Of a DNA stretch of 27,921 nt, positions 1,314 to 22,519 are shown one piece after another (the stretch's first letter is position 1; each line of letters starts with the position of its first letter). The stretch is taken from the NCBI GenBank assembly GCA_965371225.1, contig CBDUXP010000052.1:1-27921 (forward strand), read 5' to 3'. The notes under the pieces are model-generated. The model saw nothing but the letters and a program-made list of their open reading frames with translations. It did not search any database and was not told the origin of the DNA. The position numbers and the translations under genes are program-made. The stretch comes from CBDUXP01 sp965371225 [NCBI: uncultured bacterium]. Its GTDB lineage: Bacteria > Abyssobacteria > SURF-5 > CBDUXP01.

Positions 1314-3311
1314 TCAGCGCGCGGTCCCGTCACCTGCTGCGGGCGGGGGCCGTTTCCACGGCACGAGCCGGATGCGATCGATGCGCACGAGGGCGCCTTG
1401 GGTTCCCGCCGGGCGCAGCGCGAGTTGCACGATCGGTCCCGCCATCATGCTCCGGGGAATGTGGAAGATGGGGACGGCGTACGCGTGGGCCTCGCCGTCC
1501 GCTTCGATCGCGAAGCGGTACACGCTGTCCCCGTCGAACGTCTGCCGGCCCGGCGTCCGGAACAGCCATTCCGCATAGGTGATGGGGCTGGGCGACCGGA
1601 CCGCCATGGTGACTTCGGCGTAGGCCAGCGGCACGTCCCCGAAGTCCAGCGGCGGACTGAAGAAGAGCGCGAACGGGCTCTGGGTTACCCACGCGTGCTC
1701 CCCCGCGGATCGCGGCGCCGCGATCAAATGCAGATTCGGCGACCAGCCCTGCCGGTCCCAGTGGCCGGGCCCCTCCCACACCGCCAGGTCCGGCGCGCGG
1801 GGGTCTTGCGGATGCGCCCACGCCGGCAGCGGCTCCGCCCACCAGTGCAACGCCTCGCCGTCCCACCGTCGGACCTCGATGTGTTGCACCGGCTGTCCGG
1901 GGACGTGGTCCGGCACCGGCCACGCCGCGTGCGGGTGTTCGCGCTGTTCCCACAAGTGCAACTGGTCTCGTGCCTCCGGGGTGTAGGGGAGCAGCAGCGC
2001 GGCGGAGAGTGGCGTGAACATGCCGAAGTCGCCGAACCGGTTGGGTGGGTTCAGCAGATACACGCCGGTAGCCTCCTCGGGTGGCGGCAGACTCTCGGAG
2101 AATGTGTGCACCACCGCGCGCGTCTTGGCGAATCGCGATCGCCATTGCAGGCTTTCCGCCGCGGAAGAGACGGCCACCGCCGCCACGAGCAGCGTCCAGA
2201 GCACCGCGCCGCGCCGCGTGCCCGCGGGGTCCGCCGCCGCCACGGCCACCGCCAGCGCAAGGGGCCACCCGGGCCAGAACAGGTACCACGATTCGGGATT
2301 CCGCGCATTCAGGAAATCGACGATCGGCACGAGCGCCCCAACCCACCAAGCGGCGAGCCACGCGACGGCGGGCCAAGTGCTGCGCCACCGGCCGCCGGTC
2401 CCCAACAGCAGGACCAGGAGCGCGGGATACAGCCAGGCAACGTGTTCGAGGAGGGGATGGTGGCGGACATCGAGCAGTGTGAGTTGCGACGTGGTGCCGT
2501 AGTACAGGCCGGCGCCCATGCTACGCAGGACACCGATCCCCACTTCACTGAACACGCCGCGCGGCTCCCCGGTCAGCGTCGTCAGGCCCGCGCTTTGCAT
2601 GATGACGAACCGCACGAGCACGTACGCCCCGGTGGCGACGACGACGGGGAGGATGCGGGCGGCCAGGTCGGGCAGCCGCTGCCGCCAGGGCACGCCGCGC
2701 GCGAGGTACAGACTCACGACGACCACCGGCGCGCCGACGATCAGGTTGGGCTCGTACGACATGAACGTGCAAAGGAGCGCCACACCGCCGAGCAGGACGA
2801 GCCACCGCCGGCGCGGGTAGTCGGGATGCGTAAGACACCACACAGCCAATACCAGATACACGTGATCCAGCGAGCGGCCGATGAAATAGACGCGGCTGAA
2901 ATGTTGCGGCAGCAGCGCGAACAGCAGGGTGGCGGCCAACGCGGCACTGGAGGTAACGGTGACGCGCGCGCTGACCTCATACACCAATACGACCAAGAGG
3001 AGGTGTACCCCGATCCCCACCGCGAGGGATCCCATGGGGTTCGCGCCGAAAGCCTGTACCTGGGCGTAGACGGTCACCCACCACGCGGCGCGCCACACGT
3101 TGTTCGGATGCAGGATGCGGTGGAACATCGCCGCGGGCGACATGGGCTGCAATTCCGGGATCAGCCGAAATGTGTCGTGCATGAAGTCGCCCGTGAGCCC
3201 CGGGCCGAACCAGGCGAGCACGGCCACGGTCAGCACGATGCGCGGATGCGTTCCCGCCCAGCGCCACACGTCCCGAAGCTGATCGGCGCCGCGGGCCGCT
3301 CGTCCAGTCAA
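1314..3311 (-). CDS. Polytopic membrane protein, GT-C glycosyltransferase-like, paralog A
   Basis: The product is 665 residues. Residues 24 to about 390 hold roughly ten hydrophobic helices; residues 395-665 are soluble and probably form a beta-sandwich ending in RIDRIRLVP. The first loop after helix 1 carries an acidic motif (GDFMHDTF, D46), where GT-C enzymes such as PMT/ArnT keep the catalytic Asp. No donor-specific motif was recognised, so the glycosyltransferase call rests on topology. It aligns along its whole length with the protein at 4339-6300: SYExNL at 185-190, ESxYLF near 340, and a C-terminal AEVTMAVR block are shared. The gene follows the propeller gene by 15 bases. The start is uncertain: TTG at 3311 lacks a clear Shine-Dalgarno, and a GTG shortly inside is possible. 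Confidence 0.6.
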   Translation of the reverse strand: MTGRAARGADQLRDVWRWAGTHPRIVLTVAVLAWFGPGLTGDFMHDTFRLIPELQPMSPAAMFHRILHPNNVWRAAWWVTVYAQVQAFGANPMGSLAVGIGVHLLLVVLVYEVSARVTVTSSAALAATLLFALLPQHFSRVYFIGRSLDHVYLVLAVWCLTHPDYPRRRWLVLLGGVALLCTFMSYEPNLIVGAPVVVVSLYLARGVPWRQRLPDLAARILPVVVATGAYVLVRFVIMQSAGLTTLTGEPRGVFSEVGIGVLRSMGAGLYYGTTSQLTLLDVRHHPLLEHVAWLYPALLVLLLGTGGRWRSTWPAVAWLAAWWVGALVPIVDFLNARNPESWYLFWPGWPLALAVAVAAADPAGTRRGAVLWTLLVAAVAVSSAAESLQWRSRFAKTRAVVHTFSESLPPPEEATGVYLLNPPNRFGDFGMFTPLSAALLLPYTPEARDQLHLWEQREHPHAAWPVPDHVPGQPVQHIEVRRWDGEALHWWAEPLPAWAHPQDPRAPDLAVWEGPGHWDRQGWSPNLHLIAAPRSAGEHAWVTQSPFALFFSPPLDFGDVPLAYAEVTMAVRSPSPITYAEWLFRTPGRQTFDGDSVYRFAIEADGEAHAYAVPIFHIPRSMMAGPIVQLALRPAGTQGALVRIDRIRLVPWKRPPPAAGDGTAR

Positions 3312-3326
3312 CGGCAGGATGCCCGC

Positions 3327-4301
3327 TTAGGTCCGGGCGGCCGGAAGCAGGTCGCGGGCGACGGCAAGGTGCGTGCGCCACCGGCCGTCCGCCTGCGCTC
3401 CGTAATACAGGTACAGGTCGTCGCCGACGCGCAAGGGAAACGCGGCGCGCTGGCCGTCCCGTTCACTGGCCAGAGTGGATTCCAGCAACCGCCGGGGGGT
3501 CTGCCACCACACGGTATCCCGGGACGCGGAACCGTACACGCACCAGCGGCCGTCCACCTCTGCCGTGAAGATCAGCAGCCATCGGTCGCCGAGCCAGAGC
3601 AGGCGGGGGTAGCGGCACGCGCCCACGGCCGGCAACCACGCTTCCATAATGATGCCGACGCGGGACCAGTTCTGGAGGTCGATCGATTGCGCCAGCCCGA
3701 TGCGCCACGTGGTGCCGTTCGATGCCGCGTACACCATCAGCCACAGGTTGCGCTTTGGATCGCGCACGATGGCGGGTTCGGCCACGGCGACCCGTTGCGC
3801 CGCCCCCGCCGGTTCCAGCGTGACCGAGTGGCCCAACCAGCGGTCGGCGTCCGAGGAGATGGAACACCAGACGCTCGCGTGGCGGGCGGCGTCCAGCTCG
3901 GGAGTCTCGACCGCGCTATACCAGAGGTACCACAGGTGCTGATGATAGAGCGCGTAGGGGTCCCGCGCTCCGCCCGCGCCCCCCGGAGGCCCTTCCCCGA
4001 GCACCGGCCGCCGCGGTCCGCTCCAGTCGGCGGGGTCGCTACTCTCGATGCAGTACAGGCCGGCGGTGTGGCCGTCGAACGCCGTGTACCACAGCCGAAG
4101 CCGGTCATCGCGCCGCACTACGGACGCCACGTCGGCGGCGCGCGAGTCCGGCGCCCCCGGCGTGCCCACATCGAGCACCACCCCAAGCTTCTCGAACTGC
4201 TCGGCTTTTGGTTCGGCCGCCTGCCGGCGGTGGTCCCCGCCATCCACCAACGTGCGCACCCGCGCATACGGTCGATCGTGCGTATCTGAAATGGGCCCCA
4301 C
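3327..4301 (-). CDS. Five-bladed beta-propeller protein, GH43/GH130-like fold
   Basis: The product is about 324 residues with no signal peptide. Five similar blades are visible, each with an aromatic strand such as LRLWYTAF, LWYLWYSAVE, LWLMVYAAS, WLLIFTAEV or LYLYYGAQ, separated by polar turns. Several blades begin with an acidic residue before a Pro or Tyr (GARDPYAL, AEPAIVRDP, CRYPRLLW), as in GH43/GH130-type enzymes where these line the active site. This supports a glycosidase or phosphorylase fold, but a catalytic triad cannot be confirmed by eye, so a binding role is possible. The reading frame is open further upstream, but that part overlaps the previous gene's 3' end in another frame. 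I chose GTG 4301 because GAGG lies just before it and a TATATT -10 lies at 4317-4322. It sits between two paralogous membrane proteins. Confidence 0.6.
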   Translation of the reverse strand: MGPISDTHDRPYARVRTLVDGGDHRRQAAEPKAEQFEKLGVVLDVGTPGAPDSRAADVASVVRRDDRLRLWYTAFDGHTAGLYCIESSDPADWSGPRRPVLGEGPPGGAGGARDPYALYHQHLWYLWYSAVETPELDAARHASVWCSISSDADRWLGHSVTLEPAGAAQRVAVAEPAIVRDPKRNLWLMVYAASNGTTWRIGLAQSIDLQNWSRVGIIMEAWLPAVGACRYPRLLWLGDRWLLIFTAEVDGRWCVYGSASRDTVWWQTPRRLLESTLASERDGQRAAFPLRVGDDLYLYYGAQADGRWRTHLAVARDLLPAART

Positions 4302-4316
4302 CCTGACCTCGGGCCC

Positions 4317-4322
4317 AATATA
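4317..4322 (-). promoter_or_regulatory. Possible internal -10 element (TATATT) before the propeller gene
   Basis: TATATT on the minus strand ends 15 bases before the GTG at 4301, inside the 37-base gap after the upstream membrane-protein gene. It could provide an internal start for the propeller gene and the last gene of the operon. No -35 is evident. Confidence 0.35.
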
Positions 4323-4338
4323 GCACGCCGCCCGAGTG

Positions 4339-6300
4339 CTACGGCGCCGGCGCGGCGCGCAGCGGCACGAGGCGAATACGGTCGATGCGCACGAGCGCCT
4401 CCGGCTCGCCGGTGGGGCGCAGGGCAACCCGCGTCACGGGTCCCCCCAAGAGCGCACGAGTATGAGCCAGAATCGGAACGGCGTACGTGTGTGGCGCCCC
4501 GTCCGCGCGAATCCGGAAGCGGACGACTTTGCGTGCGTCCCATGCGGTGTCAGCCTCGGTGACGAACATGAAATCGCCATACGCATCAAGCCGGGTTGCG
4601 CGGACCGCCATGGTGACCTCGGCCCAGGCCAACGGAACCGCTCCAGGGTGCAGGGCGGGGCCGGTCAGCAGAGAGAACCGGCTCGCCGTCCGAAACCACT
4701 CCCCCGTCGCATCGCGCCGGACGCGCACCAAGTGCGGATTCGCCTGCCAACCCTGGGCGGCCCACGAGCGCGGTCCGCTCCAAGCCCCGAGGTCGGGCGC
4801 GCCGGGGACCGCGGGCCGCGCCCACGCGGGCACCGGCTCTGCCACCCATGTCGCGTCGCGCCAGCGCAAGACCACCACTGGCCAGGTGTCCACGTCAGGC
4901 ACCGTCGCCCCCACGTCCAGCGGCGGATCGTGCGGCAGGTCGCGCACCAGGTGCACGGCAATGTCCGCGCGCCGCGACGGGGGCACGGGCAACGTGACGG
5001 CGGTCGACAACGCCGCGAAGGGGTACTCGCCGAATCGCGAACCGGGTGGGTCCAGCAAGTAGTAGCGCCGCGCTTCCCCCGTCGCCGGTACGAAGGACGC
5101 GAATGACGTCACCACCGTGCGTGCATAGTGGGCCAACCGCAGCCACTGCACCACTTCGACGTAAGAGGCTACCACCAGGACGCCGAACACCAGGGCCCAA
5201 AGTGCCGTCGCCCGCCGCGCGCCACCCGGCGCGGGGGCGTACAGGGCGAGGGCGGTGGTCAACGCCCAGCCCGCGTAAAACAGATAGTGCGATTCCGCAT
5301 CGACGCGGCGCACTGCATCCACCGAGGGCACTAGTGTCGCCGCCCACCAGAGCACCAGCACGGCGCCCACCAGCCGGCCTCGCGGCGACCGCCCCGGTCC
5401 CAGGCAGAGGACGAGGGCGGCAGCGGGCGCAATGGCCGTGATCCACGACAGGACGGGGTAGTCCCAATACCGCAGCAGATGGGTGTGCGACGCGAGGGCG
5501 AGCGCCATCGTCACGGGAAACTGGCGCAGAAACCCGGCGGGTCCCTCGGCCAGCACCGTCTGCGCCGCACCGGTCACGTCGTAGTAGAAGGAGAGATTGC
5601 CCGCCCAGCCGAACCGCACCCAGGCGTAGAGCGCGGTGAGGACTGTGACCGGCCCAAGGCGCCATAGCAGGGTGCGGAGCTGCACGGGGGGCGTGCGCAC
5701 TGCCATCAGGATCGCCACGGCGTAGACGGCCGCGCCGATGGCCAGGTTCTGTTCGTAGGAAAAGAGCGCGAAGAGCAGGCTGCCAGTGCCCGCGACCCCC
5801 GGCCACCACCGGTGCGGATACGAGGGGTGCGTAAAACACCACACCGTCAGCACCCCCCACAACGCGTTGAGCGGTTGCACGATGTAATACACCCAGCGGA
5901 TGTGGTGGAGCGGCAGCAACGCAAAGGCGGCAGCGCCGAGCAACGCGGGCCCCGCCTCCGCGCCACACCGGCGCATGCACTGATACACGAGCAGGATGAT
6001 GGCGGCATACACGACCAGACCCAGGAGCAGGTACCCCGCCGCCCACGTGCCAAACAGCTGCACCTGGAGCCACATGCCCGTTACGGCAACGGCGCGAAAC
6101 AACGCTGCGGAAGTGCGTAGGGCCCAGAGGTCTTGCAGCGTAGTCTCTTGTGCCCACACCACAATGCCGAACGCGTCGTCGAAGAAGTAGCCGCCGACCC
6201 CCGGCCCGAGGGCCAGCAGAACGAGCACCGTCAGTGACCGGTGCGGGTGTGCGAGACACGCCCGCCACGCACCGGCTCCGCTCGGCCGCCCACGGGTCAT
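4339..6300 (-). CDS. Polytopic membrane protein, GT-C glycosyltransferase-like, paralog B
   Basis: The product is 653 residues from the preferred ATG at 6300. It has about ten hydrophobic helices in residues 20-390 and a soluble C-terminal domain of about 260 residues ending in RIDRIRLVPLRAAPAP. The first periplasmic-side loop has GGYFFDDAF (D41, D42), matching the acidic first-loop motif of GT-C transferases. It is a full-length paralog of the protein at 1314-3311: both share HPH/HPR before helix 1, THPxYP, SYExNL, ESxYLF, the PAWAxPxxPxAPDL block and the AEVTMAVR block. It is probably an envelope sugar transferase, but donor and acceptor are unknown. The frame is open to a TTG at 6378; I rejected that longer form because its 26 extra residues are low-complexity and non-membrane. 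No Shine-Dalgarno precedes 6300, which may be explained by the overlapping leader ORF. Confidence 0.6.
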   Translation of the reverse strand: MTRGRPSGAGAWRACLAHPHRSLTVLVLLALGPGVGGYFFDDAFGIVVWAQETTLQDLWALRTSAALFRAVAVTGMWLQVQLFGTWAAGYLLLGLVVYAAIILLVYQCMRRCGAEAGPALLGAAAFALLPLHHIRWVYYIVQPLNALWGVLTVWCFTHPSYPHRWWPGVAGTGSLLFALFSYEQNLAIGAAVYAVAILMAVRTPPVQLRTLLWRLGPVTVLTALYAWVRFGWAGNLSFYYDVTGAAQTVLAEGPAGFLRQFPVTMALALASHTHLLRYWDYPVLSWITAIAPAAALVLCLGPGRSPRGRLVGAVLVLWWAATLVPSVDAVRRVDAESHYLFYAGWALTTALALYAPAPGGARRATALWALVFGVLVVASYVEVVQWLRLAHYARTVVTSFASFVPATGEARRYYLLDPPGSRFGEYPFAALSTAVTLPVPPSRRADIAVHLVRDLPHDPPLDVGATVPDVDTWPVVVLRWRDATWVAEPVPAWARPAVPGAPDLGAWSGPRSWAAQGWQANPHLVRVRRDATGEWFRTASRFSLLTGPALHPGAVPLAWAEVTMAVRATRLDAYGDFMFVTEADTAWDARKVVRFRIRADGAPHTYAVPILAHTRALLGGPVTRVALRPTGEPEALVRIDRIRLVPLRAAPAP

Positions 6301-6389
6301 GGGCGGGCCGCCGGTGGGGTGCGCGTTGTCACCACCAACGTCGCGGTGCGGGACAGGTCCCTCGCGGTTCTCCAGCAACGTTTGGTCAC
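6297..6389 (-). other. Possible 30-codon leader ORF upstream of and overlapping paralog B
   Basis: On the minus strand a GTG at 6389 lies exactly 6 bases after the TATATT -10, so the predicted mRNA would start at or beside this codon. The frame (VTKRCWRTARDLSR and onward) stays open for 30 codons. Its TGA overlaps the ATG of the membrane-protein gene in the arrangement ATGA. The peptide is basic and Thr/Pro-rich and resembles no family I know. The overlap would allow translational coupling and would explain the missing Shine-Dalgarno at 6300. In GC-rich DNA a 30-codon open frame is not rare, so this is a hypothesis. Confidence 0.2.
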
Positions 6390-6395
6390 GGCGGG

Positions 6396-6424
6396 AATAT
6401 ACCCCAGCGCGCGAGCGAGGTCAT
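6396..6424 (-). promoter_or_regulatory. Probable promoter of the membrane-protein/propeller operon (ATGACC-N17-TATATT)
   Basis: On the minus strand ATGACC (6424-6419) and TATATT (6401-6396) are 17 bases apart. The nadB -10 (6432-6437) lies just behind this -35 on the other strand, so the two divergent promoters nearly touch and may interfere with each other. Confidence 0.5.
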
Positions 6425-12769: not shown

Positions 12770-13627
12770 TCAGAACGGGCGGGTGCCGGCGATCTGGGTG
12801 CGGTACATGACGCGCCGCTGCGTGGCATCAAAGTCGGCGCGCTTGTGGTTCGTGCAGCGGTTGTCCCACACCACCACGTCGCCGGGGCGCCATCGGTGCG
12901 TGTAATAGAGGTGAGGCTGGTCCGCGTGTCGCCGCAATTGCTGCAGGAAGGCGCGCTCCTGGCTCGGGTCGGGCAAGCCGGCGAGGCCGAGGGAGAGTGA
13001 GCTGACGTAGAGGACCTTCCGGCCGGTCACCGGATGGGTCCGCACGACGGGATGGTGAAAGCGCGGCACCTCCGCGTCCGTGACCTTCTGGTTGGGCCCG
13101 GCCACGTCCAGCTTCGCGAACCGGCCCGCGTACGGATTGAACGCCCACACTTGCAAATCCGCCACCTGGGCCTTGGTCGCCGCGTCCAGCTCCTCGTAGG
13201 CCATATATAGGTTCGCCCACGACGTGTCGCCACCCTCTGCCGGCACTTCGACCGCATGCAGCATAGCGCCGAGCAGCGGCACGGGCATGTACTGCAGGTC
13301 GGAATGGGGCGCAATCGCCCCCTTCCCCAGGACACCGCCTTCCACCACGTTTGAAACGGGCACCACGGGCGGCTGCGATGCGTCGCCGAGCACCGGAATG
13401 TCAGCAGGCGGAACATACGTGGGGCCGAACCATTCGCTGACGGCCAATTGCCGCTCGCGGGTGAGGTCCTGGTCGCGGAAAATCAGCACTTGATAGTCCG
13501 CGAACGCCTGCAGGATGCCGTAGACGACGGCGCCGGGCTGGTCCCGCGCCAGGTCCACACCGTGCACTTCCGCGCCGAGGGGCCCGCCGGTGGGGACCAC
13601 CTCCAGCGCTACTGCCGCCTCAGGCAT
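12770..13627 (-). CDS. TauD/TfdA-type Fe(II)/2-oxoglutarate dioxygenase
   Basis: The product is 285 residues, the normal TauD length. The iron-binding facial triad is visible as H108-x-D110 (in APHSD) and H261 (in WDNRCTNHKRADFD), with R271/R272 as the likely 2-oxoglutarate carboxylate anchor. LGAEVHGVDL near the N-terminus and QVLIFRDQDL are family hallmarks. Such enzymes hydroxylate sulfonates, aryloxyacids, carnitine precursors or other small acids; the substrate cannot be read from the sequence. The ATG at 13627 overlaps the amidohydrolase stop by 8 bases, so the two are one operon and may act in sequence on the same compound. Confidence 0.9.
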   Translation of the reverse strand: MPEAAVALEVVPTGGPLGAEVHGVDLARDQPGAVVYGILQAFADYQVLIFRDQDLTRERQLAVSEWFGPTYVPPADIPVLGDASQPPVVPVSNVVEGGVLGKGAIAPHSDLQYMPVPLLGAMLHAVEVPAEGGDTSWANLYMAYEELDAATKAQVADLQVWAFNPYAGRFAKLDVAGPNQKVTDAEVPRFHHPVVRTHPVTGRKVLYVSSLSLGLAGLPDPSQERAFLQQLRRHADQPHLYYTHRWRPGDVVVWDNRCTNHKRADFDATQRRVMYRTQIAGTRPF

Positions 13628-15071
13628 TCGCGAGGATCTTCCGCGCCGTCTCTTCGACCACCGTGCCGTCGAAGAACGCCGGGTTCATGCCCCCGTGGAG
13701 GAGCACGGGATAGGTACACACGAAGTCCCGGTAGTCCGCGTCAGTGAGCAGCCCTCTGTCCACCAGGCACCGGCTCACCAATACCACTTCCTTGATGTCA
13801 GGCACGTCCCAATGGCCGATGTCGGACGAGAAGAACGCCTTCAGTCGCAGCCCAAACGGATTGCCCCGCCCGTCGAGCGCCCGGTAGACGCTCCGGTCGT
13901 CCGCCTCGCACCCAAAGAAGAACTGCCGGTCGAACACGTCCGCGATCTCCTGCTCTTCCTGAAAGCCGGCCGCCTCAAACTCGTCGCGCGCCCACGCGGG
14001 CGGCGCGCCCCCTTCGCTGCCGCGCACCCCGTCGCGCATGCTGCCCATCCCAGCCAGCACCGGCCGCCCGATTTTCTCGTTCAGCCCGTACTGCTCGACC
14101 AGCCCGAACAGCTCCGCCCGGTCCAGATGGGTGGGGTCGAATTGCTTTAGGCCCTCGGCGTTCCGCTTCTCCCAATGCTCCTCCAGCGAATGCAGCAGGT
14201 CCGCCGCCCAGCCCGCGCCGCATTCGAGGAAGCCGAAACGCAACTGCGGGAAGCGGCGCGTCACGCCGCCCATCACCAGCGACTTGGCGAATTCTCCCTG
14301 TTGATAGGCGTGGCCCATGATGTGGTTGAACATGTAGTTGGTCGGCGAGCGGCGGCCGGAATCCAGGTATCGCAGGCCGATCGCGCCATGGGAGGTGACC
14401 GCGACACCCAAGTCGCAGAAAGTTTGCCACAGCGGATCGTAATCGTGCGCGCTGTCGATCCCAAAGCGGTCCACCTGCGCCGCGGCAGGGAACGCGTCGG
14501 GATGCGCGGGCCAGGGCCGCGCCACGCCGGGCGGGACCATGGCCACCTTGTACCCGAGCGTCTTCACACAGTGTTCCAGCTCTGCCATCGCCTCTTCGGG
14601 CGTGTGCATGGGCAACACCGCAGACACGGTCAGTCGATCCGTGTGCGGCGCCATGAGTTCCGCGTTCATGGTGTTGATCGCGCGGCAAGCGAGCCGGCGC
14701 ATCTCATCGTCCGGCATGGTCGGGAGGGCGAGGCCCAAGGTGGGATACAACACCGCATAGTCCATCCCGATTTCTTCCAGCCGCTCGGCCAGCAGGTCGG
14801 GAATCATCACCGTGGCTAGGTCGCGCGCGTCGTTTGTGGTGCCCCACCACGCGCCCCGCTGGTCGCCGCGGTCGGCGTCGCCCATGGAATTGAGCGGATG
14901 CGCGCGCATGGTGTCCCGCAGGCGATCGGCGGCTCCTTCACCGCCCACCTTGTCCACGTACCCCAGAAACAGGCCAAAGGGTTCGATCAGGTGCCCGTCC
15001 CCATCAATAATAGGATGATCCAGCTTCGCACGCAGTTCGGATACCTTGGTCGCCGTGTCAGTCTGCAGCAT
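13620..15071 (-). CDS. Amidohydrolase_2 (metal-dependent TIM-barrel hydrolase/decarboxylase)
   Basis: The product is 483 residues, somewhat longer than the 300-400 usual for amidohydrolase_2 (ACMSD-like) proteins. Metal-site candidates are the N-terminal DGDGH (D23, D25, H27), H228 in VTSHGAIG, the NHIMGHAYQQG segment and a C-terminal Asp in FSSDIGHWD. LPMHTPEEAMAELEHC is a typical helix of this family. Members hydrolyse or decarboxylate aromatic and cyclic acids and lactones. An insertion of about 60 residues between the last strands (LAGMGSMRDGVRGSEGG onward) explains the extra length. The ATG at 15071 has GGAGGGG upstream. It is co-transcribed with the TauD-like gene, suggesting a catabolic step. 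Confidence 0.85.
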   Translation of the reverse strand: MLQTDTATKVSELRAKLDHPIIDGDGHLIEPFGLFLGYVDKVGGEGAADRLRDTMRAHPLNSMGDADRGDQRGAWWGTTNDARDLATVMIPDLLAERLEEIGMDYAVLYPTLGLALPTMPDDEMRRLACRAINTMNAELMAPHTDRLTVSAVLPMHTPEEAMAELEHCVKTLGYKVAMVPPGVARPWPAHPDAFPAAAQVDRFGIDSAHDYDPLWQTFCDLGVAVTSHGAIGLRYLDSGRRSPTNYMFNHIMGHAYQQGEFAKSLVMGGVTRRFPQLRFGFLECGAGWAADLLHSLEEHWEKRNAEGLKQFDPTHLDRAELFGLVEQYGLNEKIGRPVLAGMGSMRDGVRGSEGGAPPAWARDEFEAAGFQEEQEIADVFDRQFFFGCEADDRSVYRALDGRGNPFGLRLKAFFSSDIGHWDVPDIKEVVLVSRCLVDRGLLTDADYRDFVCTYPVLLHGGMNPAFFDGTVVEETARKILANA

Positions 15072-15192
15072 GGTCCCCTCCGACTTGTGAGGCGCGCCCG
15101 CTACACCCGTGAGGGCGCGCCGCCCCGCAGTCCGTCACCCTATCCCCTCGGAGGGGAGCCGGGCAACCTTGGCTCGCGACCGCCGCGCGGCC

Positions 15193-16206
15193 TTACGGCT
15201 CAGGGGTTTCGTGCAGCACGCGCTCGTAAAACGCGTACTCCGCGTCAGCCAGCGCCTGTGCCTGCGTCCCCGCGGTCTGGAACAAGTGCGCCGCCTCGGC
15301 ATTCTCCGACAGCGTCTTGAACGTATCCGAGAGGGCGGTCCATTGCTCGCCGATGGCGTGCATCTCGGCGCTCAAGCCCGCGCCCGCCAGTTCGGGTACC
15401 TCGGCCTCGACCTCGCGCAGAAAATCCGCGTACAGATACCGGAAGTGGCCCCCGCCCGTACCACGCCGCTCGATGATCTGATACGCGAAGCGCGTGGTCC
15501 AGCTCCAGTCCCCCGCCAACGCATCCGGCCAGTCTGGCAGCTCTTGCGCGAGCGTGCGCATCCCGGCCACTCCCTGAAACGCGATGGGCATTGCCGGGTC
15601 CGGGTCGAGCAGGGCCTCCGCGTTGCGCCGCATGGTGTGCAGCATCATCGCGCGCATGGCCGGCACGGGGCCCGGCTTCTCGAGCTGATGCCAGTGATAC
15701 TCCAAGGGCATGGGCAACTGGGCGGCGGACCGCGCCTCGTCCAACCGCGCCAGGGTCACGTGCTGCACGCTGTCGAACTGGGTGTCCGATAGGTACGCGT
15801 GCTCGTCGTCGTAGCCCACGAGCAGAATGGTGTGGCCGGCGAAGTGGGTGGACGAGTTGTAGTAGTCCAAGTAGAAGATGTCCGAGCGCAGCATGACCGG
15901 CACGTCCCGGTCCACCCACGCCGCCACGTGTTGCCACGCCTGGTCGCTGTCGGTCTCCAGGTTCCAGGTCCAGGGCTGCTGGATCGTCTCGAAGAAGTCG
16001 GTTTCGAGCATGCGGGACCGGCCGTTGATGACGCGGGGCAGCGGCGTGCCGTCGAGCTTCGCGTAGAAGAACCCGAGGCCGCAGGCGAGGCCGAAGCACA
16101 GCGCTTCGCTGTAGTCCAGCCCGTGATACACCATGGCGTTGTGCAGCGCGGTCGAGCCGCAGTGGCGGCCGGGATGGTGCGTGAAGGGGAGGTGATGCGC
16201 GGCCAC
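15193..16206 (-). CDS. BtrH_N plus DUF4872 protein (papain/C39-like acyl- or peptide-transfer fold)
   Basis: The product is 337 residues with two domains. Residues 5 to about 145 match the butirosin BtrH N-terminal family: GRHCGSTALHNAMVYHGLD with candidate nucleophile C16, a glycine-rich FGLACGLGFFY, THFAGHTILLVGYDD (H121/H125) and D141 in LSDTQF, forming a plausible Cys-His-Asp triad. Residues about 170-330 are helical and match DUF4872. From family knowledge BtrH transfers an acyl side chain from a carrier protein to an aminoglycoside, but most members are uncharacterised. No carrier protein, aminoglycoside or RiPP gene lies nearby. Start: GTG 16206 with AGGAG 7 bases upstream and a clear promoter. 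It ends 121 bases before the amidohydrolase start, so readthrough into that operon is possible. Confidence 0.85.
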   Translation of the reverse strand: MAAHHLPFTHHPGRHCGSTALHNAMVYHGLDYSEALCFGLACGLGFFYAKLDGTPLPRVINGRSRMLETDFFETIQQPWTWNLETDSDQAWQHVAAWVDRDVPVMLRSDIFYLDYYNSSTHFAGHTILLVGYDDEHAYLSDTQFDSVQHVTLARLDEARSAAQLPMPLEYHWHQLEKPGPVPAMRAMMLHTMRRNAEALLDPDPAMPIAFQGVAGMRTLAQELPDWPDALAGDWSWTTRFAYQIIERRGTGGGHFRYLYADFLREVEAEVPELAGAGLSAEMHAIGEQWTALSDTFKTLSENAEAAHLFQTAGTQAQALADAEYAFYERVLHETPEP

Positions 16207-16235
16207 AACGGTACTCCTAGCGTCGGGGGCGAATC

Positions 16236-16264
16236 AGTATGGCAAGCACGCCGCAGCGGGTCAA
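16236..16264 (-). promoter_or_regulatory. Promoter of the BtrH-like gene (TTGACC-N17-CATACT)
   Basis: TTGACC (16264-16259) and CATACT (16241-16236) on the minus strand are 17 bases apart and each differs little from the sigma70 consensus. The predicted start near 16229 gives a leader of about 23 bases containing AGGAG. Confidence 0.6.
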
Positions 16265-16278
16265 CCGCGAAGCGTCTC

Positions 16279-16284
16279 TATAAT
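16279..16284 (+). promoter_or_regulatory. Consensus -10 (TATAAT) of the gamma-glutamylcyclotransferase-like gene
   Basis: A perfect TATAAT lies 6 bases before the GTG at 16291, so transcription would begin on the start codon and give a leaderless mRNA. No -35 is visible, and the region upstream is shared with the divergent BtrH-like promoter. Confidence 0.55.
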
Positions 16285-16290
16285 ACGGTG

Positions 16291-16770
16291 GTGCCGCAGT
16301 ACTTCGCGTACGGCTCGAACCTGGATCCCGCCCAGTTAGCGGATCGCGAGGTGGCGTTCTCCAACCCGCGCCGCGCGCAGTTGCCCGACTGGAAGCTGAC
16401 CTTTAATAAGGTAGCCACCCTGAACGCGGTCCCCGGGGAAGGGCGGGCGAACATTGTGCCCGCGCGCCGCGACTGCGTGTTGGGGGTTGTGTTCGACGTG
16501 GACGAGGCGGGGCTGGCGAATCTGGACTGGTACGAGGGCGCGCGGTCGGGGCATTACCGGCGCACCACGGTGCCCGTCGTAGTGGATGGGGAGGCCGCCG
16601 TGGAGGCGCTGACCTACGTAGCCGAGTTCACCGGTACGGGTCTGCGGCCGTCCCCATGGTACCTGCGGAAGATCATTGCCGGGGCGCGGCACTTCCGGTT
16701 CAGCCCCGAGTACGTGGCGCGCCTGGAGACGTGGCCTACGGTCGGGCCAACCGAACGGCCGCCTAAGTGA
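16291..16770 (+). CDS. Gamma-glutamylcyclotransferase-like (GGCT/AIG2 fold) protein
   Basis: The product is 159 residues, the usual length. The N-terminus MPQYFAYGSNLDPAQL carries the diagnostic YGSNL substrate loop (residues 7-11), and the probable catalytic glutamate is E82 in LDWYEGA, followed by YRRTTVPV. Family enzymes release 5-oxoproline from gamma-glutamyl peptides or gamma-glutamylamines; which substrate applies here is unknown. The frame is open far upstream, but GTG 16291 begins exactly at the conserved N-terminus; GTG 16288, one codon earlier, is the only close rival. No Shine-Dalgarno is present, in keeping with the TATAAT only 6 bases upstream. It converges on the ferredoxin gene. 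Confidence 0.88.
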   Translation: MPQYFAYGSNLDPAQLADREVAFSNPRRAQLPDWKLTFNKVATLNAVPGEGRANIVPARRDCVLGVVFDVDEAGLANLDWYEGARSGHYRRTTVPVVVDGEAAVEALTYVAEFTGTGLRPSPWYLRKIIAGARHFRFSPEYVARLETWPTVGPTERPPK

Positions 16771-16829
16771 TCCCGCCCGCTGGTGCACGTTCGCGATACC
16801 GGAACGACACGGCCGATTTGTCGCAGCAT

Positions 16830-17195
16830 CTAGTCGGCAGCGGCGGCCTTGGGCGGACCGTCAGGTCCCCAGCGGTAGTCCGCGCGGGTAATACGCAGGC
16901 GTTCGACCGGATTGCCACCGATGATGTGCGACTGGATGATCTCTTCCACGTCGTCCACGGTTACGCCGCCATACCACACGGCCTCGGGGTAGACCACTAC
17001 GGTCGCGCCGTAGGGACATGCGTCCAGGCAGCCGGCCTTGTTGGCGCGCACTGCCCCGCGCAGCCGGTGGCGTTCGAGCGCGGCCTTGAACGCGGCGCGC
17101 AGCTCCACCCCGCCCTTGTCCTTGCAGCAGCCGCGGGGGTCGTCCGCCGGACGCTCGTTCTCACAGACGAATATGTGCCGTTCGTACTTCGCCAC
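16830..17195 (-). CDS. Thioredoxin-fold (2Fe-2S) ferredoxin
   Basis: The product is 121 residues, the size of Shethna/Aquifex-type 2Fe-2S ferredoxins. Cluster ligands are C11 (FVCENERP), C23 or C24 (GCC), C56 and C60 (GCLDACPYG), matching the Cx(11-12)C...Cx3C pattern of this family and of the NuoE-like domain. YPEAVWYGGVTVDDVEEII is the typical C-terminal part of the fold. It is a soluble electron carrier whose partner is not identifiable here. Start: GTG 17195, 17 bases after the glyS stop, with a weak Shine-Dalgarno, so it is probably co-transcribed with glyS. The C-terminal tail is rich in Pro and Ala. Confidence 0.88.
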   Translation of the reverse strand: MAKYERHIFVCENERPADDPRGCCKDKGGVELRAAFKAALERHRLRGAVRANKAGCLDACPYGATVVVYPEAVWYGGVTVDDVEEIIQSHIIGGNPVERLRITRADYRWGPDGPPKAAAAD

Positions 17196-17212
17196 GCCAG
17201 GTTCAGTCTGGC

Positions 17213-18550
17213 CTAGAAGCTGACCGCGGGCAAGATCACCCCGCGCAATTCGTCGATGGGGATCCGGCGCTGTTCCATGCTGTCGCGCTCACGCAGGGTC
17301 ACGGTCCGATCCTCGAGGGTCTGGCCGTCTACGGTCACGCAGAAGGGCGTCCCCGCCTCGTCTTGCCGCCGGTACCGCCGGCCGATGGCCCCCTTCGCGT
17401 CGTAAAACACTTTCATGGCGCCACGGAACTCTTGCGCGATCTCTTGGGCCAGCTCGGGCATGCCCGCCTTGTTGACGAGGGGCAGCACGGCCACCTTGAT
17501 GGGCGCGACCCGCGGATGGAATCGCATGACCACGCGGCGCTCTTTCTGGTCTTCCGGATTCTCCACGGCGTACGCATCCGCCAGCACAGCCAGGACGCAC
17601 CGGTCACAGCCGATGGCCGTCTCGACGATCCACGGCGTGAAACGTTCTTTCGTCTCCGGATCGAAGTACGTCAGGTCCGTCTTTTTCCCGGAGTACTCCT
17701 GGTGTTGCGTCAGGTCGAAGTCGCCCCGATTGTGAATCCCCTCCAGCTCCTGCCAGCCAAATGGAAACTGGTACTGGATGTCGAACGCCTTCTTGGCATA
17801 GTGCGCCAGTTCGTCCGGGCCGTGTTCCGCCCAGCGCAATTTCGCGCGCGTAAGGCCGATGGTGTCGTACCACTGCCAACGCAGCTCCCGCCAGGCGTCG
17901 AACCACTCGCCCGCGGACTCGGGCGTGACGAAGAACTGCATCTCCATCTGCTCGAACTCGCGGGTGCGGAAAATAAAATTCCCCGGGGTGATCTCGTTGC
18001 GGAACGCCTTGCCGATTTGCGCAATGCCGAAAGGCAGCTTTTGCCGCGACGGGCCGAGCACGTTCCCGAAGTTGACGTAGCTCCCCTGCGCGGTCTCCGG
18101 CCGCAAGTACACCACGTGCGCCGCGTCTTCCACGGGGCCCATGTACGTCTTGAACATGAGGTTGAATTGCCGGGCCTCCGTCAGCTCCCCCCCGCAGGCG
18201 GGACAGACGCCGGGGGTCTCCACGTGATCTTCGCGGAACCGCTGCTTGCACGCGCGGCAGTCCACCAGCGGATCGGCGAAACTCGCTACGTGTCCGCTGG
18301 CCTCCCACACGCGCGGATGCATGAGAATCGACGCTTCCAGGCCCTCGATGTCGTCGCGTTCGTACGTCATCGCGCGCCACCAGGCCTGCTTAATGTTCCG
18401 CTTGAGTTCCACACCGAGCGGACCGTAGTCCCAGCAACTACCGATGCCGCCGTACACTTCGCTACTGGGGAACACGAAGCCGCGCCGCTTGCACAGGGAG
18501 ACGATCTCCTCCATGCGCGCCTCGCCGGGTGATGTGGTTTTCTTTGCCAT
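17213..18550 (-). CDS. glyS: Glycyl-tRNA synthetase, single-chain (alpha2) type
   Basis: This class II synthetase charges tRNA-Gly. The product is 445 residues, near the length of alpha2-type bacterial enzymes and unlike the two-subunit GlyQ/GlyS form. The N-terminal GGIGSCWDYGPLG (34-46) is specific to this type. A zinc-binding insertion has C98, C101, C116 and C119. Motif 2 is IGKAFRNEITPGNFIFRTRE (179-198), followed by FEQMEMQFF. Motif 3 reads IGCDRCVLAVLADAY, where most homologs have GVDR. The anticodon-binding domain is complete to the C-terminus. Start: ATG 18550; the Shine-Dalgarno (CACAGGG) is weak and I see no clear promoter in the 99 bases upstream. The ferredoxin gene follows. Confidence 0.95.
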   Translation of the reverse strand: MAKKTTSPGEARMEEIVSLCKRRGFVFPSSEVYGGIGSCWDYGPLGVELKRNIKQAWWRAMTYERDDIEGLEASILMHPRVWEASGHVASFADPLVDCRACKQRFREDHVETPGVCPACGGELTEARQFNLMFKTYMGPVEDAAHVVYLRPETAQGSYVNFGNVLGPSRQKLPFGIAQIGKAFRNEITPGNFIFRTREFEQMEMQFFVTPESAGEWFDAWRELRWQWYDTIGLTRAKLRWAEHGPDELAHYAKKAFDIQYQFPFGWQELEGIHNRGDFDLTQHQEYSGKKTDLTYFDPETKERFTPWIVETAIGCDRCVLAVLADAYAVENPEDQKERRVVMRFHPRVAPIKVAVLPLVNKAGMPELAQEIAQEFRGAMKVFYDAKGAIGRRYRRQDEAGTPFCVTVDGQTLEDRTVTLRERDSMEQRRIPIDELRGVILPAVSF

Positions 18551-18649
18551 TACCCTGTGAATTGCCCGCCCGGTGCCGGACGCTTCTCCGGATTTGCCCG
18601 TCCTACTTTCATCGCAAACAACGCCGCATTCGGGAGGGGTGGAGCGGTT

Positions 18650-20014
18650 TCACGGGGTGGGGGCACGCGGCGCCAGGGTACCCGCGGGTTGCGTCTGGTC
18701 CAGTAAGCGCATGATCGCCACTGCTGTGAGTTGTGCGCGCGCGGTCAGACTGGGAATATCCAGCCATTCCCGGTGGGTGTGGAAGCCGCCACCCACGGGG
18801 CCGACCCCGTCGACCGCCGGACAGCCGCGCGCGCCGATCAAATTTGCGTCGCTCCCCCCGCCGCTGTGCCGCTGTACGAGCCGCTGCCCCAAGTCGTCCC
18901 CCACGCGAAAGAACAGGTCCCGCAGCGCTTCGGACTCGGGCGTCGGGGTCCAGGGCGGCCGATGCAGCACTCCGGCAGCCCGCGTGCGCGTCGGGGTACC
19001 GTCCGTGCGCGCGCGCACCGCCGGCGTCGCGCCCAAGCTGCCGAAGAAGCGCTCGATGGCCCCGCCCGCGTCGGCGCGCACATATCGCACGTCCACCGCG
19101 GCCTCGACGCACCCCGGGACGATATTTCGCTTGCAGCCCGGGCAAACCACGTCGCCCACATTGACGGTGGTCCCCGTGTCGTAATCCGTCATGGCCTGCA
19201 TGGACAGAATGTGGCCGGCCATCTCTTCGAGCGCGTTCGCGCCCTGGTCGTGGTGGACGCCGGCGTGCGCGGCCCGCCCTTCGACCACCACGCGAAACTG
19301 GCCCAACCCCTTGCGGCGGGTCGTGATCGTGGTCGCCCCGTTCTGCACCTGCCCGCCCTCGAAGACGATGGCGGCGTCGTGCCGCTGCGCCTCGGCCTCG
19401 AGCACGGGACGGGACGTGAGCGAGCCGAGTTCCTCGTCGCTGTTGAGGACGATCGTCAGCGTCGCCTCGTCCAGCACGCCGGCCCAGTGCAGCGCCCGCA
19501 GGATTGTGACCAACATGGCTACGCCGCCCTTGCAATCCACCACCCCGGGGCCGAACAGGCGATCCCCCTCGCGCGTCACGGAGAGGAAGCCGCTGTCCGG
19601 TTCGAACACCGTATCCAGGTGTGCGGACAGCAACAGCCGCTTGCCGCTTGTGCCAATGTGTCGGGCGATCAGGTGCGGCGCAGTCTCCACGGGTGGGTCG
19701 GGGTTGTGTGGGCACCCGATCGAGGCGATCGTATCGCCGGGGACCTCCTGTAGGAGAAAGCCCAGGGGCTCCAGTTCCGTGGCGCACATGGCGGCCACGG
19801 CCCGGATGCCGTCGGCGTTGCGGCTGCCGCTGTTCACCTCCACCAGCGCGGTGAGCAGTTGGACGGCCCGCGGCTCATCCTGCGCAATGGCGTCGACGAC
19901 GAGCTGCTCTTGTTGCGTCAGGCCCATGCCTAGCGCCGGCGTCGGCGCAAGCAGCAGGGCGATCGCGAACAGACACACCGCCGGTGCGCGGCGCGAGGCG
20001 GGTAGGCGTAACAT
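18650..20014 (-). CDS. Secreted M20 family zinc metallopeptidase (carboxypeptidase G2-like)
   Basis: The product is 454 residues. A signal peptide is visible at 1 to about 29 (SRRAPAVCLFAIALLLAPTP, then ALG). Two-zinc site candidates are H132 and D134 (SAHLDTVF), D160 (GPGVVDCKGG), catalytic E194 with E195 (NSDEELGS), E219 (VFEGG) and H412 (GGGFHTHREW). The dimerisation domain lies between about 230 and 345. This is the CPG2/M20A pattern, releasing C-terminal amino acids such as glutamate or deacylating amino acids, probably outside the cytoplasm. The frame is open to 20272, but ATG 20014 is preferred: it starts the signal peptide, and a TATACT -10 lies 7 bases before it, predicting a leaderless mRNA. 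Confidence 0.88.
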   Translation of the reverse strand: MLRLPASRRAPAVCLFAIALLLAPTPALGMGLTQQEQLVVDAIAQDEPRAVQLLTALVEVNSGSRNADGIRAVAAMCATELEPLGFLLQEVPGDTIASIGCPHNPDPPVETAPHLIARHIGTSGKRLLLSAHLDTVFEPDSGFLSVTREGDRLFGPGVVDCKGGVAMLVTILRALHWAGVLDEATLTIVLNSDEELGSLTSRPVLEAEAQRHDAAIVFEGGQVQNGATTITTRRKGLGQFRVVVEGRAAHAGVHHDQGANALEEMAGHILSMQAMTDYDTGTTVNVGDVVCPGCKRNIVPGCVEAAVDVRYVRADAGGAIERFFGSLGATPAVRARTDGTPTRTRAAGVLHRPPWTPTPESEALRDLFFRVGDDLGQRLVQRHSGGGSDANLIGARGCPAVDGVGPVGGGFHTHREWLDIPSLTARAQLTAVAIMRLLDQTQPAGTLAPRAPTP

Positions 20015-20066: not shown

Positions 20067-21395
20067 CTAGCGGACGGGCCGCGGGCGGCCCCTACCGTCG
20101 CCGACGGTGGTCGTGATCGTGTAGGTAATGTCCTCAGTCTTGTGCGCGGGCACCGTAGGTTCAACCAAGAGCGTGGTGACATTCTCCCGTTCAATGGGCC
20201 CACGCCCTTTCCACGTCCAGTCGTTGTGGTGATATCGGCGGATCTCCCAGGTGGTCGGGCGGGTCGTTCCATTACGAAGGCGGAGCCGGAACGTTTCGAT
20301 GGTGTCGTAGCCCACCACGTTGCCCGCGTTGTTGAATCGGATGTTCTCCTTGCGGAAACGCATGCGGTCCATCTCGATGCTCACCCCCGGCGCGGCGCCC
20401 AGGTTCACCTCGATGTCCTCGCCGATAGGCACGTACTCGACCCTGCTCTGCCCGGCGAACAGCACGCGGTCGCTCTCCGGCAAGCGCCGGAAGGCCATGA
20501 CCCGGCCGTTCGGCAGCGGCTCCTTGCCCAGCTCGTTCTCTTCCGTGTTCTCGACCGTGAAGAATTTCTGCACGGCGTTCGTGTGCCACTCCTGCGGATC
20601 TACGCGGTAGTCTACCGACAGGGGCACGTCCGCCACGTGGAACGACCGCAGGCGCTTCGCCCACTGGTCCGGAATGGTCTCGCGGCCCTCCACCGAATAC
20701 AGAAAGTACTCCGAGAGTCCCTCCTTCATGATCTGCTTCGGCGCGGTGGGAGCCGCCCGGGCAGCTAGACTCGCGCCCACCTGCGCGCTACTCATGTCGT
20801 ACGCCGCGACGGCCTCCTGCATCCGGCGCATCTCATCGCGCCGCCCGCGGGCCAGGTCCGCGATGGGCTCGACCAGGTTGATCTTCCCCACCACCAGGCG
20901 CGTCTCCGCGTTCGGGTAGTCCTCCCCGCTGCGGTTGTGCACGGTCACGTAACCCGTGAGGGACATGCGCTCCTCGTTCGGGTCCGCCTCGATCACGTAG
21001 TCCGCCGCCCAGGAGATGCCGCTGGTGAAGTAGATGATCTCCACCTGCACGTCGCCCTCCACCTCGCTGGAGATGTGCCACACGAGATTGTTCGGCAGGT
21101 TCGGGGGGAACGTGGTGTCCAGCACGGCCACCTGGTGCGCGTGCGAGACCGGGCGCAGCTCGACCGACGTGGGGTCGATGAGCGTGCCGGCCCAGGAGAA
21201 CTGCAGGCGGTTCTCGCCCGTTTGCAGGGTCAGGTGGCGGCGCTCGCGCACCAGCGTGAGGTCCGCGCTGTTATAAATGGTGAGTTGTACCGTGTCCCGG
21301 GGGGGCAGGGTGACCAGCTCCACGTAGGCGAACACGGCCGGCGTGAGGGCCAGGGTGAGAGCAAGCGTCAGGGCGAAGCGGCGAAACGTTTTCAT
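20067..21395 (-). CDS. Secreted DUF4139-type protein, paralog A
   Basis: The product is 442 residues with a clear signal peptide (MKTFRRFALTLALTLALTPA, then VFA) and cleavage near residue 23. The mature part is all-beta in appearance and matches the DUF4139 type: an opening LTIYNSADLTLVRERRHLTL strand pair, NRLQFSWAGTLIDPTSV, ISWAADYVIEA, TVHNRSGEDYPNAETRLVVG, and a C-terminal ITYTITTTVG. Function is unknown; it probably acts in the periplasm or at the surface. A central segment rich in Ala and Gln (about 190-235) is missing from paralog B. Start: ATG 21395 with TAGGAGGT 7 bases upstream, overlapping the stop of paralog B, so both genes are one operon and translation is likely coupled. Confidence 0.75.
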   Translation of the reverse strand: MKTFRRFALTLALTLALTPAVFAYVELVTLPPRDTVQLTIYNSADLTLVRERRHLTLQTGENRLQFSWAGTLIDPTSVELRPVSHAHQVAVLDTTFPPNLPNNLVWHISSEVEGDVQVEIIYFTSGISWAADYVIEADPNEERMSLTGYVTVHNRSGEDYPNAETRLVVGKINLVEPIADLARGRRDEMRRMQEAVAAYDMSSAQVGASLAARAAPTAPKQIMKEGLSEYFLYSVEGRETIPDQWAKRLRSFHVADVPLSVDYRVDPQEWHTNAVQKFFTVENTEENELGKEPLPNGRVMAFRRLPESDRVLFAGQSRVEYVPIGEDIEVNLGAAPGVSIEMDRMRFRKENIRFNNAGNVVGYDTIETFRLRLRNGTTRPTTWEIRRYHHNDWTWKGRGPIERENVTTLLVEPTVPAHKTEDITYTITTTVGDGRGRPRPVR

Positions 21396-21406
21396 GGTTG
21401 AACCTC

Positions 21407-22519
21407 CTACTGCAGGTTCTTTCGCACCACGGTGAACTCGAGTAAGACCTTCTCGCCTTCGGCCGGGGCGGCGACGGTGAATTCCACGGTCTCGGAGTTC
21501 TCGATTTCATACGGGTGCGAGTGCTGGGTGATCGACCAGTCATCCGTGAGGTGCTCCACCACCCGCAACTGGACCGGCATGGGACGGAAATTCTCGATCT
21601 CAAGCTTGAAGCGCTCTTCCAGGTCGTACATGACGACCTGCCCATGGCGGTTGCGGCGCTCATTGAGCCGCTGCTCGCTCATCCGGTGGCGCTTCACCAC
21701 CACGTCCCGGGAATCGCCCACGTAGAGTTCCAGCTCATCCCCGACGGGGGTGTACGCCACCCAATCCTCGCCGAGAAACGCGGTGGTGCCCTGGCTGTCC
21801 TCCTGGAAGAGCCGCGCCTTCCCGCGCCGCAGGGCGAACTCACCGAGCCCCACCGCGGCCGTGTTCGGAATCACGTAGTGGAGCGCGACGCGCTCCTGCG
21901 TTCGGGCAAAGTCATAGCTGAACGTCTTGCGCACCGGCACCCGGTTGAGCGCGTACGACAGCATTTCCTTCGCCTCCCCGTTGTCGATCGACTTCGTGAA
22001 GTCCTCCCCATAGCCCGCGGCAATGTGCGCGTCCTCGAAAGGCTCGCCGCTGCCGTTGCGCACCTTGAGGTACGACCGGAACGTCATGAACTTCTCGGCG
22101 TTGTCCGCGATGGCCCGGTAGGCCACCTCCCGCTGAAAACCGGAGATGAGGTACGAAATGCGGATGCGCTCGGCCCCCACCTTCACACTGTCCACCTCCC
22201 ACACCAGGGAGTTCCCCTGCGGCGGGAAGCTGACGCTGAGGACACTCACCTTCGCCGGCTCGCTCAACGCCTGAAACTGGATGGACCCGGCATCGATGTT
22301 CACGTTCTGCCACGAGAAATCGATCTGGTTGCGCCCGCGCTGGAGCGCCACCGTGCGTTCCTCCTGGACGAGGACGAATTGCTGATGGTCCAAGCGCAGG
22401 TGAGCGCTATCCCGCTCGGGCAAAGTAACGAGCTTGGTGCGCGCCTGCGCGCCGCCGGGCGCCAGCGCGAGGCCGGCAGCGAGCAATGCGAGTTGGAGAC
22501 TACGGGCGAAACGTGGCAT
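21407..22519 (-). CDS. Secreted DUF4139-type protein, paralog B
   Basis: The product is 370 residues with a signal peptide (MPRFARSLQLALLAAGLALA, then PGGAQA), cleaved near residue 27. It aligns with the downstream protein from the first mature residues: KLVTLPERD here, ELVTLPPRD there; NQIDFSWQNVNIDAGSI here, NRLQFSWAGTLIDPTSV there; and the C-terminal half (YTPVGDELELYVGD here, YVPIGEDIEVNLGA there). It lacks the Ala/Gln-rich central insertion. Family function is unknown. Start: ATG 22519 with AGGAGGAA 5 bases upstream. As first gene of the pair it is preceded by a 237-base gap holding a weak TACTAT -10. Confidence 0.72.
   Translation of the reverse strand: MPRFARSLQLALLAAGLALAPGGAQARTKLVTLPERDSAHLRLDHQQFVLVQEERTVALQRGRNQIDFSWQNVNIDAGSIQFQALSEPAKVSVLSVSFPPQGNSLVWEVDSVKVGAERIRISYLISGFQREVAYRAIADNAEKFMTFRSYLKVRNGSGEPFEDAHIAAGYGEDFTKSIDNGEAKEMLSYALNRVPVRKTFSYDFARTQERVALHYVIPNTAAVGLGEFALRRGKARLFQEDSQGTTAFLGEDWVAYTPVGDELELYVGDSRDVVVKRHRMSEQRLNERRNRHGQVVMYDLEERFKLEIENFRPMPVQLRVVEHLTDDWSITQHSHPYEIENSETVEFTVAAPAEGEKVLLEFTVVRKNLQ

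Follow-up and report, generated by a model that had tools for sequence, protein, structure and literature searches.

The systems described to date that lie closest to the locus analysed here are leaderless genes, bidirectional promoters, proteins with the acyltransferase fold of the BtrH type and human gamma-glutamylcyclotransferase, and what is said below of published work follows excerpts of the papers cited. In bacterial leaderless genes a TANNNT element is found about 12 bp upstream of the start codon (PMC3160421), and in Deinococcus radiodurans the -10 element of such genes typically lies 6–7 bp before the ORF (PMC12340547). Bidirectional promoters possess a symmetric -10 element that serves both strands, the commonest distance between their two start sites being 18 bp (PMC12825309, PMC10268837). 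BtrH is an acyltransferase which, with its partner BtrG, adds the AHBA side chain (PMC7356214), and the BtrH_N domain has been described as a component of an acyl carrier protein:aminoglycoside acyltransferase, with the C39 and C70 peptidases as close relations (PMC10318531).

The stretch of DNA analysed (the window) is 27,921 nucleotides long with a GC content of 67%. It contains a BtrH-like gene and a gene of the gamma-glutamylcyclotransferase (GGCT) family which are arranged head-to-head and, given a GGCT start at the GTG at 16291, are separated by an intergenic gap of 84 bases (16207–16290). The features of this region are:

15193–16206, minus strand: BtrH-like protein with BtrH_N and DUF4872 domains (Pfam), GTG start, triad C16/H125/D141

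16214–16218, minus strand: AGGAG, a Shine-Dalgarno-like (SD) site 7 nt ahead of the GTG at 16206

about 16229, minus strand: predicted RNA start

16241–16236, minus strand: -10 element CATACT, 4/6 consensus, with TG at 16244–16243 (extended -10)

16264–16259, minus strand: -35 element TTGACC, 5/6 consensus, spacer of 17 nt to the -10

16285–16280, minus strand: TATTAT, the plus-strand -10 read on the other strand, with a possible RNA start at 16273, 18 bp from 16291

16279–16284, plus strand: -10 element TATAAT, 6/6 consensus, its first T 12 nt ahead of the GTG at 16291

16291, plus strand: predicted RNA start of the GGCT gene, leaderless

16291–16770, plus strand: GGCT/AIG2-like protein, GTG start (16288 alternative), Glu82 in LDWYEG

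The minus-strand promoter, TTGACC-N17-CATACT, agrees with the consensus at nine of twelve positions and qualifies as sigma-70-type by its -35 and -10 elements, a spacer within 16–18 nt and a frequency above chance. A promoter scan of positions 13000–19000 gave two sigma-70-like sites compared with 0.5 ± 0.6 in shuffled sequences; the second is at 16912 on the plus strand, within a ferredoxin gene. Among random 84-mers (4000 per model, first-order Markov, with the make-up of the window or of its noncoding DNA) a 9/12 site with a 16–18 nt spacer occurred in 0.98% and 0.63%, TATAAT in 0.23% and 0.43%, and both together in 0.05% and 0.18% for the window and noncoding models, respectively, these probabilities being post hoc. 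Six 9/12 sites with such spacers are present in the whole window, three of them in genes and three (16264, 6424 and 27682, all on the minus strand) in noncoding DNA. Since the latter accounts for 5.9% of the window according to a hand-made gene table, these sites favour noncoding DNA and the promoter reading is sound. No inverted repeats were found in 16200–16300 (arms of 7–12 bases if perfect, or 10–12 with one mismatch, and gaps of ≤24). The first-pass annotation had placed the motifs correctly, and they exceed chance.

On the plus strand the arrangement is of another kind. The TATAAT is the single occurrence of this hexamer in the window, both strands counted, and ends 6 nt before the GTG at 16291. 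This codon is a likelier start than the alternative at 16288 because the homologues align from there, the resulting MPQYFAYGSNL matching homologous N-termini that read MPVYAAYGSNM and MPIYAAYGSNM. A -35 element of sigma-70 type is absent from the plus strand, the best candidates agreeing at 1/6 positions with a 16–18 nt spacer and at 3/6 with a 15 nt spacer. Predicted pairing with the anti-SD sequence is weak upstream of the GGCT gene (-4.9 kcal/mol); nothing there resembles an SD site except a GGTG that directly abuts the start. By comparison the 20 nt upstream of the BtrH-like gene, where AGGAG is found, have a moderate predicted value of -6.8 kcal/mol, so that in energy the two genes differ modestly. 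With TANNNT at -12 and no good SD site the GGCT gene has the sequence characteristics of a leaderless gene.

As with the leaderless genes of the Deinococcus-Thermus group and the Actinobacteria in the excerpted reports (PMC12340547, PMC3160421), the first T of the GGCT -10 element is at -12, the gap to the start codon is 6 nt, and both a good SD site and a -35 are missing; the likeness is one of layout, the RNA start of the GGCT gene being predicted. Unlike them it has an exact TATAAT, in a window of 67% GC, while the usual form in high-GC genomes is TAnnnT. No relevant paper joining gamma-glutamylcyclotransferases with leaderless genes was found in the open-access library searched.

We propose that RNA polymerase carrying the main sigma factor reads TTGACC-N17-CATACT, with the TG before its -10, and would begin the minus-strand RNA near 16229. 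The resulting mRNA would have a leader of about 23 nt in which the AGGAG site directs translation of the BtrH-like protein from the GTG at 16206, and the amidohydrolase and TauD genes downstream are possibly co-transcribed. In the other direction TATAAT would act as a -10-only promoter and start RNA at 16291, where the GGCT start codon itself begins, and the GGCT protein would be translated from a leaderless mRNA. With starts about 62 bp apart the two polymerases would have overlapping footprints, and a strongly used promoter could damp its neighbour. Taken as a whole, this explanation (two ordinary, compact divergent promoters with overlapping footprints, one giving a leadered BtrH-like and the other a leaderless GGCT message) is the most likely one, at somewhat better than even odds. 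Points against it are the CATACT element, which agrees with the consensus at only four of six positions, the modest SD contrast, the post hoc nature of the motif probabilities, the lack of this layout in the best-scoring relatives of the GGCT gene (below), and the strong anti-SD pairing (≤ -10) in five other genes of the window, namely those for the thiolase, MFS1, the amidohydrolase and both DUF4139 proteins, which counts against a leaderless reading of the GGCT gene.

The region had been described in the first-pass annotation as a compact divergent promoter in which the minus-strand -35 occupies the place of the plus-strand -35, so that the two polymerase sites cannot be used at once. The divergent promoter region is real and ordinary, and belongs to known kinds, divergent promoters and leaderless genes. 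At a spacer of 17 nt the plus-strand -35 slot is 16256–16261 and the minus-strand -35 consequently overlaps it by three bases; the slot itself contains no actual -35. The mutual exclusion was deduced from overlapping polymerase footprints and, on the same grounds, may apply. According to the abstract of a recent study, basal transcription from the five E. coli bidirectional promoters tested did not reach the level needed for polymerases to compete, while one direction, when strongly activated, could repress the opposite one (PMC12825309). An overlap by itself should therefore not be taken for a switch.

Being near-symmetric, the TATAATA might initiate in both directions, its geometry fitting a known kind. 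TATAATA/TATTATA (16279–16285) would then be read on both strands, with the plus-strand RNA beginning at 16291 and the minus-strand RNA at 16273, and the minus-strand RNA from 16273 would serve the BtrH-like gene too, alongside or instead of that from the TTGACC promoter. As in the bidirectional promoters with a symmetric -10 in the excerpts cited (PMC12825309, PMC10268837), TATAATA faces TATTAT on the opposite strand, and the implied starts are 18 bp apart, which is the commonest spacing there. From the two implied starts, the -7T of each strand coincides with the -11A of the other. The locus departs from those promoters in that position -18 relative to the plus start is C and not T, and in that a separate minus-strand promoter with a -35 of its own sits 44 bp further on; the minus reading of the shared -10, in turn, is without a -35 (best 2/6). 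We regard such two-way use as unlikely. A fuller version, in which the near-symmetric -10 yields a leaderless GGCT mRNA and a leadered BtrH-like mRNA, the latter with a second promoter, and competition sets the balance of the products, is more doubtful still; if true, 21 bp would hold a promoter, a start codon and the starts of two RNAs.

The relatives of the GGCT gene bear on whether TATAAT is a promoter element at all. AIG2_2 matches were obtained in 47 of 346 Actinomycetota genomes, and 30 loci were taken from the best-scoring places; 28 could be read, L168 and L169 being dropped for want of an anchor. A TANNNT starting at -12 to -14 precedes 21 of the 28 GGCT genes, and none occurs elsewhere within 25 nt, the background being about 0.16% per position. 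Twenty-two of the 28 are head-to-head with a GGGPxGYEA-type protein, which was a pyridine-nucleotide disulphide oxidoreductase in both loci scanned (L144 and L154). These are:

L088–L091, L144–L156, L159 and L161–L164, divergent: reductase-facing GGCT loci of Actinomycetota

All but one of the 22 (the exception being L147) have the leaderless-type layout, which is found in none of the six GGCT genes outside this group (L157, with just 155 bases upstream and its neighbour beyond view, L158, L160, L165, L166 and L167). The reductase-facing genes look like a recurrent arrangement, divergent and, to judge by their upstream sequences, leaderless; because they are kin, the 21 are not 21 independent events. 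The same six genes (L160, L166, L165, L157, L158 and L167) are the best-scoring relatives of the window GGCT among the 30 loci. Since no TANNNT is present within 25 nt of their starts, the window gene does not owe its layout to the closest relatives found, and the family uses both modes; strong SD pairing is predicted in four of the six (L160, L165, L166 and L167).

Absence of the arrangement from these six relatives speaks for the TATAAT being incidental, the GGCT gene then being served by a different promoter or by read-through, with a leader or a different sigma factor. The strong SD pairing of several window genes and the missing plus-strand -35 point the same way. Against this, the sole TATAAT of the window falls within a gap of 84 bases at exactly the leaderless distance, and a leadered GGCT mRNA would have no good SD site. 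An incidental TATAAT is unlikely, and two ordinary divergent promoters with a leaderless GGCT gene remain the preferred reading.

Elsewhere in the window, at 6424–6297 on the minus strand, an ATGACC-N17-TATATT (9/12) is followed after 6 nt by the GTG at 6389, which opens a 30-codon ORF whose TGA overlaps, as ATGA, the ATG at 6300 of a large membrane-like protein. This is a second leaderless-like layout, in which the short ORF possibly specifies a coupled leader peptide. Two long proteins of 665 and about 653 amino acids, which resemble each other by eye, flank a glycosyl-hydrolase-like protein at 1314–6300 (minus strand); neither had a Pfam match at 0.001. Tandem DUF4139-type genes, also alike by eye, are located at 20067–22519 (minus strand), the second falling below the Pfam cut-off.

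The BtrH-like protein passes the curated Pfam cut-offs for BtrH_N (112.4 bits; cut-off 29.7) and DUF4872 (130.1 bits; cut-off 28) and falls short of the DarH equivalog (NCBIfam NF053550; 122.8 bits against a cut-off of 300). Its triad is intact, Cys16, His125 and Asp141 being invariant in 38 of 38 aligned sequences. The structure model (pLDDT 94.5) is closest to CtaG (Z 25.2, rmsd 3.1 over 292 residues), AziU3/U2 (Z 24.6) and CcbD (Z 23.4), the next row scoring 12.9. The titles of the structure entries mention the CtaG variants C11A, H128A and D144N and a complex of CcbD C19S with a carrier protein, which fits the same Cys-His-Asp triad in the BtrH-like protein. It thus has the triad and the two-domain fold in common with BtrH, DarH, CtaG, AziU3 and CcbD; it differs in that its identity to the solved ones is about 9–19%, its score lies below the DarH cut-off, and the window is without a carrier protein family. 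CtaG, AziU3 and CcbD are amide-forming, carrier-protein-dependent enzymes. By its modelled fold the BtrH-like protein is probably a thioester-type cysteine acyltransferase.

Ten neighbourhoods of BtrH relatives were fetched; ten chosen ORFs were scanned in six of them and the annotation was read in two. An acyl-CoA ligase, a hydroxyacyl-CoA dehydrogenase and a thiolase are near the relative in L129, acyl-CoA dehydrogenases near those in L135 and L136, with a thiolase also in L135; no acyl-CoA-type genes were among the ORFs scanned in L132 and L133. On an Acinetobacter plasmid a BtrH relative is near PaaI thioesterases and a P450, and in Haladaptatus acyl-CoA genes are located a few kb away. 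The neighbours in L129, L135, L136, L066 and L067 hint that the BtrH_N/DUF4872 clade may work on CoA thioesters; the sample of neighbourhoods being small, this is a lead only.

The GGCT protein belongs to the GGCT/AIG2 family by its Pfam scores (AIG2_2, 57 bits; GGACT, 48.8 bits), its YGSNL motif and its Glu, and would by family be a gamma-glutamyl cyclotransferase. The closest solved structure, by sequence (E 4.8e-9) and by the fold of the model (TM 0.84; 3cry), is human GGCT (C7orf24), with which it shares a nearly full-length match and a Glu in LDxxEG at about 29% identity; one model of five was good (pLDDT 79.2; the others 38–46). In GGCT the Glu of LDxxE is the catalytic residue, and the window protein aligns with human GGCT at this Glu. 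No relative of either this protein or the BtrH-like protein was found on viral contigs.

In butirosin synthesis BtrG acts as a cyclotransferase, and the first-pass annotation had seen in the BtrH-like/GGCT pair an echo of that pathway. The genomes with BtrH_N numbered 32 among 201 of Chloroflexota, 29 among 296 of Actinomycetota, 11 among 199 of Bacillota, 14 among 198 of Bacteroidota and 156 among 295 of Paenibacillaceae; the domain occurs in many phyla and is no butirosin marker. For adjacency 110 BtrH_N genomes of four phyla were used, comprising all 29 of the Actinomycetota, 11 of the Bacillota and 14 of the Bacteroidota, the 17 of 32 Chloroflexota that exceeded the cut-off and the strongest 41 of the 156 Paenibacillaceae, two of which are also counted under Bacillota. 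GGCT genes were searched for with GGACT (PF06094) in all 110 and with AIG2_2 (PF13772) in 58 of them. Among the BtrH_N matches listed, GGCT was within 10 kb in none of the 110 genomes, a sample in which no genome was identified as a butirosin producer that could serve as a positive control. Both families were present in 43 of the 110, on one contig in 16 and on different contigs only in 27, and the closest distance, again among the matches listed, was 12,149 bp in G604. By eye the ORFs of that locus resemble phosphotransferase, aldolase, HtpG-like and peptidase genes, and not an aminoglycoside cluster. In a plasmid collection BtrH relatives occur in 96 records and GGCT relatives in 10, with no annotated GGCT near the BtrH relative in the two neighbourhoods opened.

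The echo does not hold: the pairing is not recurrent, the adjacency being peculiar to the present genome as far as the sample extends, and the 21 predicted proteins of the window include no member of an acyl carrier protein, a gamma-glutamyl ligase or a PLP decarboxylase family. A butirosin-like module, in which the BtrH-like protein would take an acyl group capped with gamma-glutamyl from a carrier protein and attach it to an amine, and the divergently expressed GGCT would remove the cap as BtrG does, can draw on the BtrH_N and DUF4872 domains with their intact triad and CtaG/AziU3/CcbD fold, and on the head-to-head GGCT gene with its Glu kept, and is nevertheless rejected as very improbable in view of the adjacency result, the absent partner families, the shortfall against the DarH cut-off, and the disulphide reductase that GGCT faces instead in 22 of the 28 Actinomycetota genes read. 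The pairing looks accidental, and the two proteins need not act together. The UvrA protein of the window had a best near-full-length identity of 65% (shorter pieces, 77%) among 64 hand-picked genomes in four phylum draws, and since values of 64–65% were obtained alike in the Chloroflexota, Bacillota and Actinomycetota draws, none of the genomes compared is close.

The case shows how a known pathway, here butirosin synthesis, may be projected onto genes that are neighbours by chance. If the proposal of two ordinary promoters with a leaderless GGCT gene is true, the locus would be one more compact divergent promoter with one leaderless gene, in a high-GC organism. For the GGCT family, the reductase-facing layout amounts, among the Actinomycetota genes read, to a small testable rule on when GGCT loses its leader.
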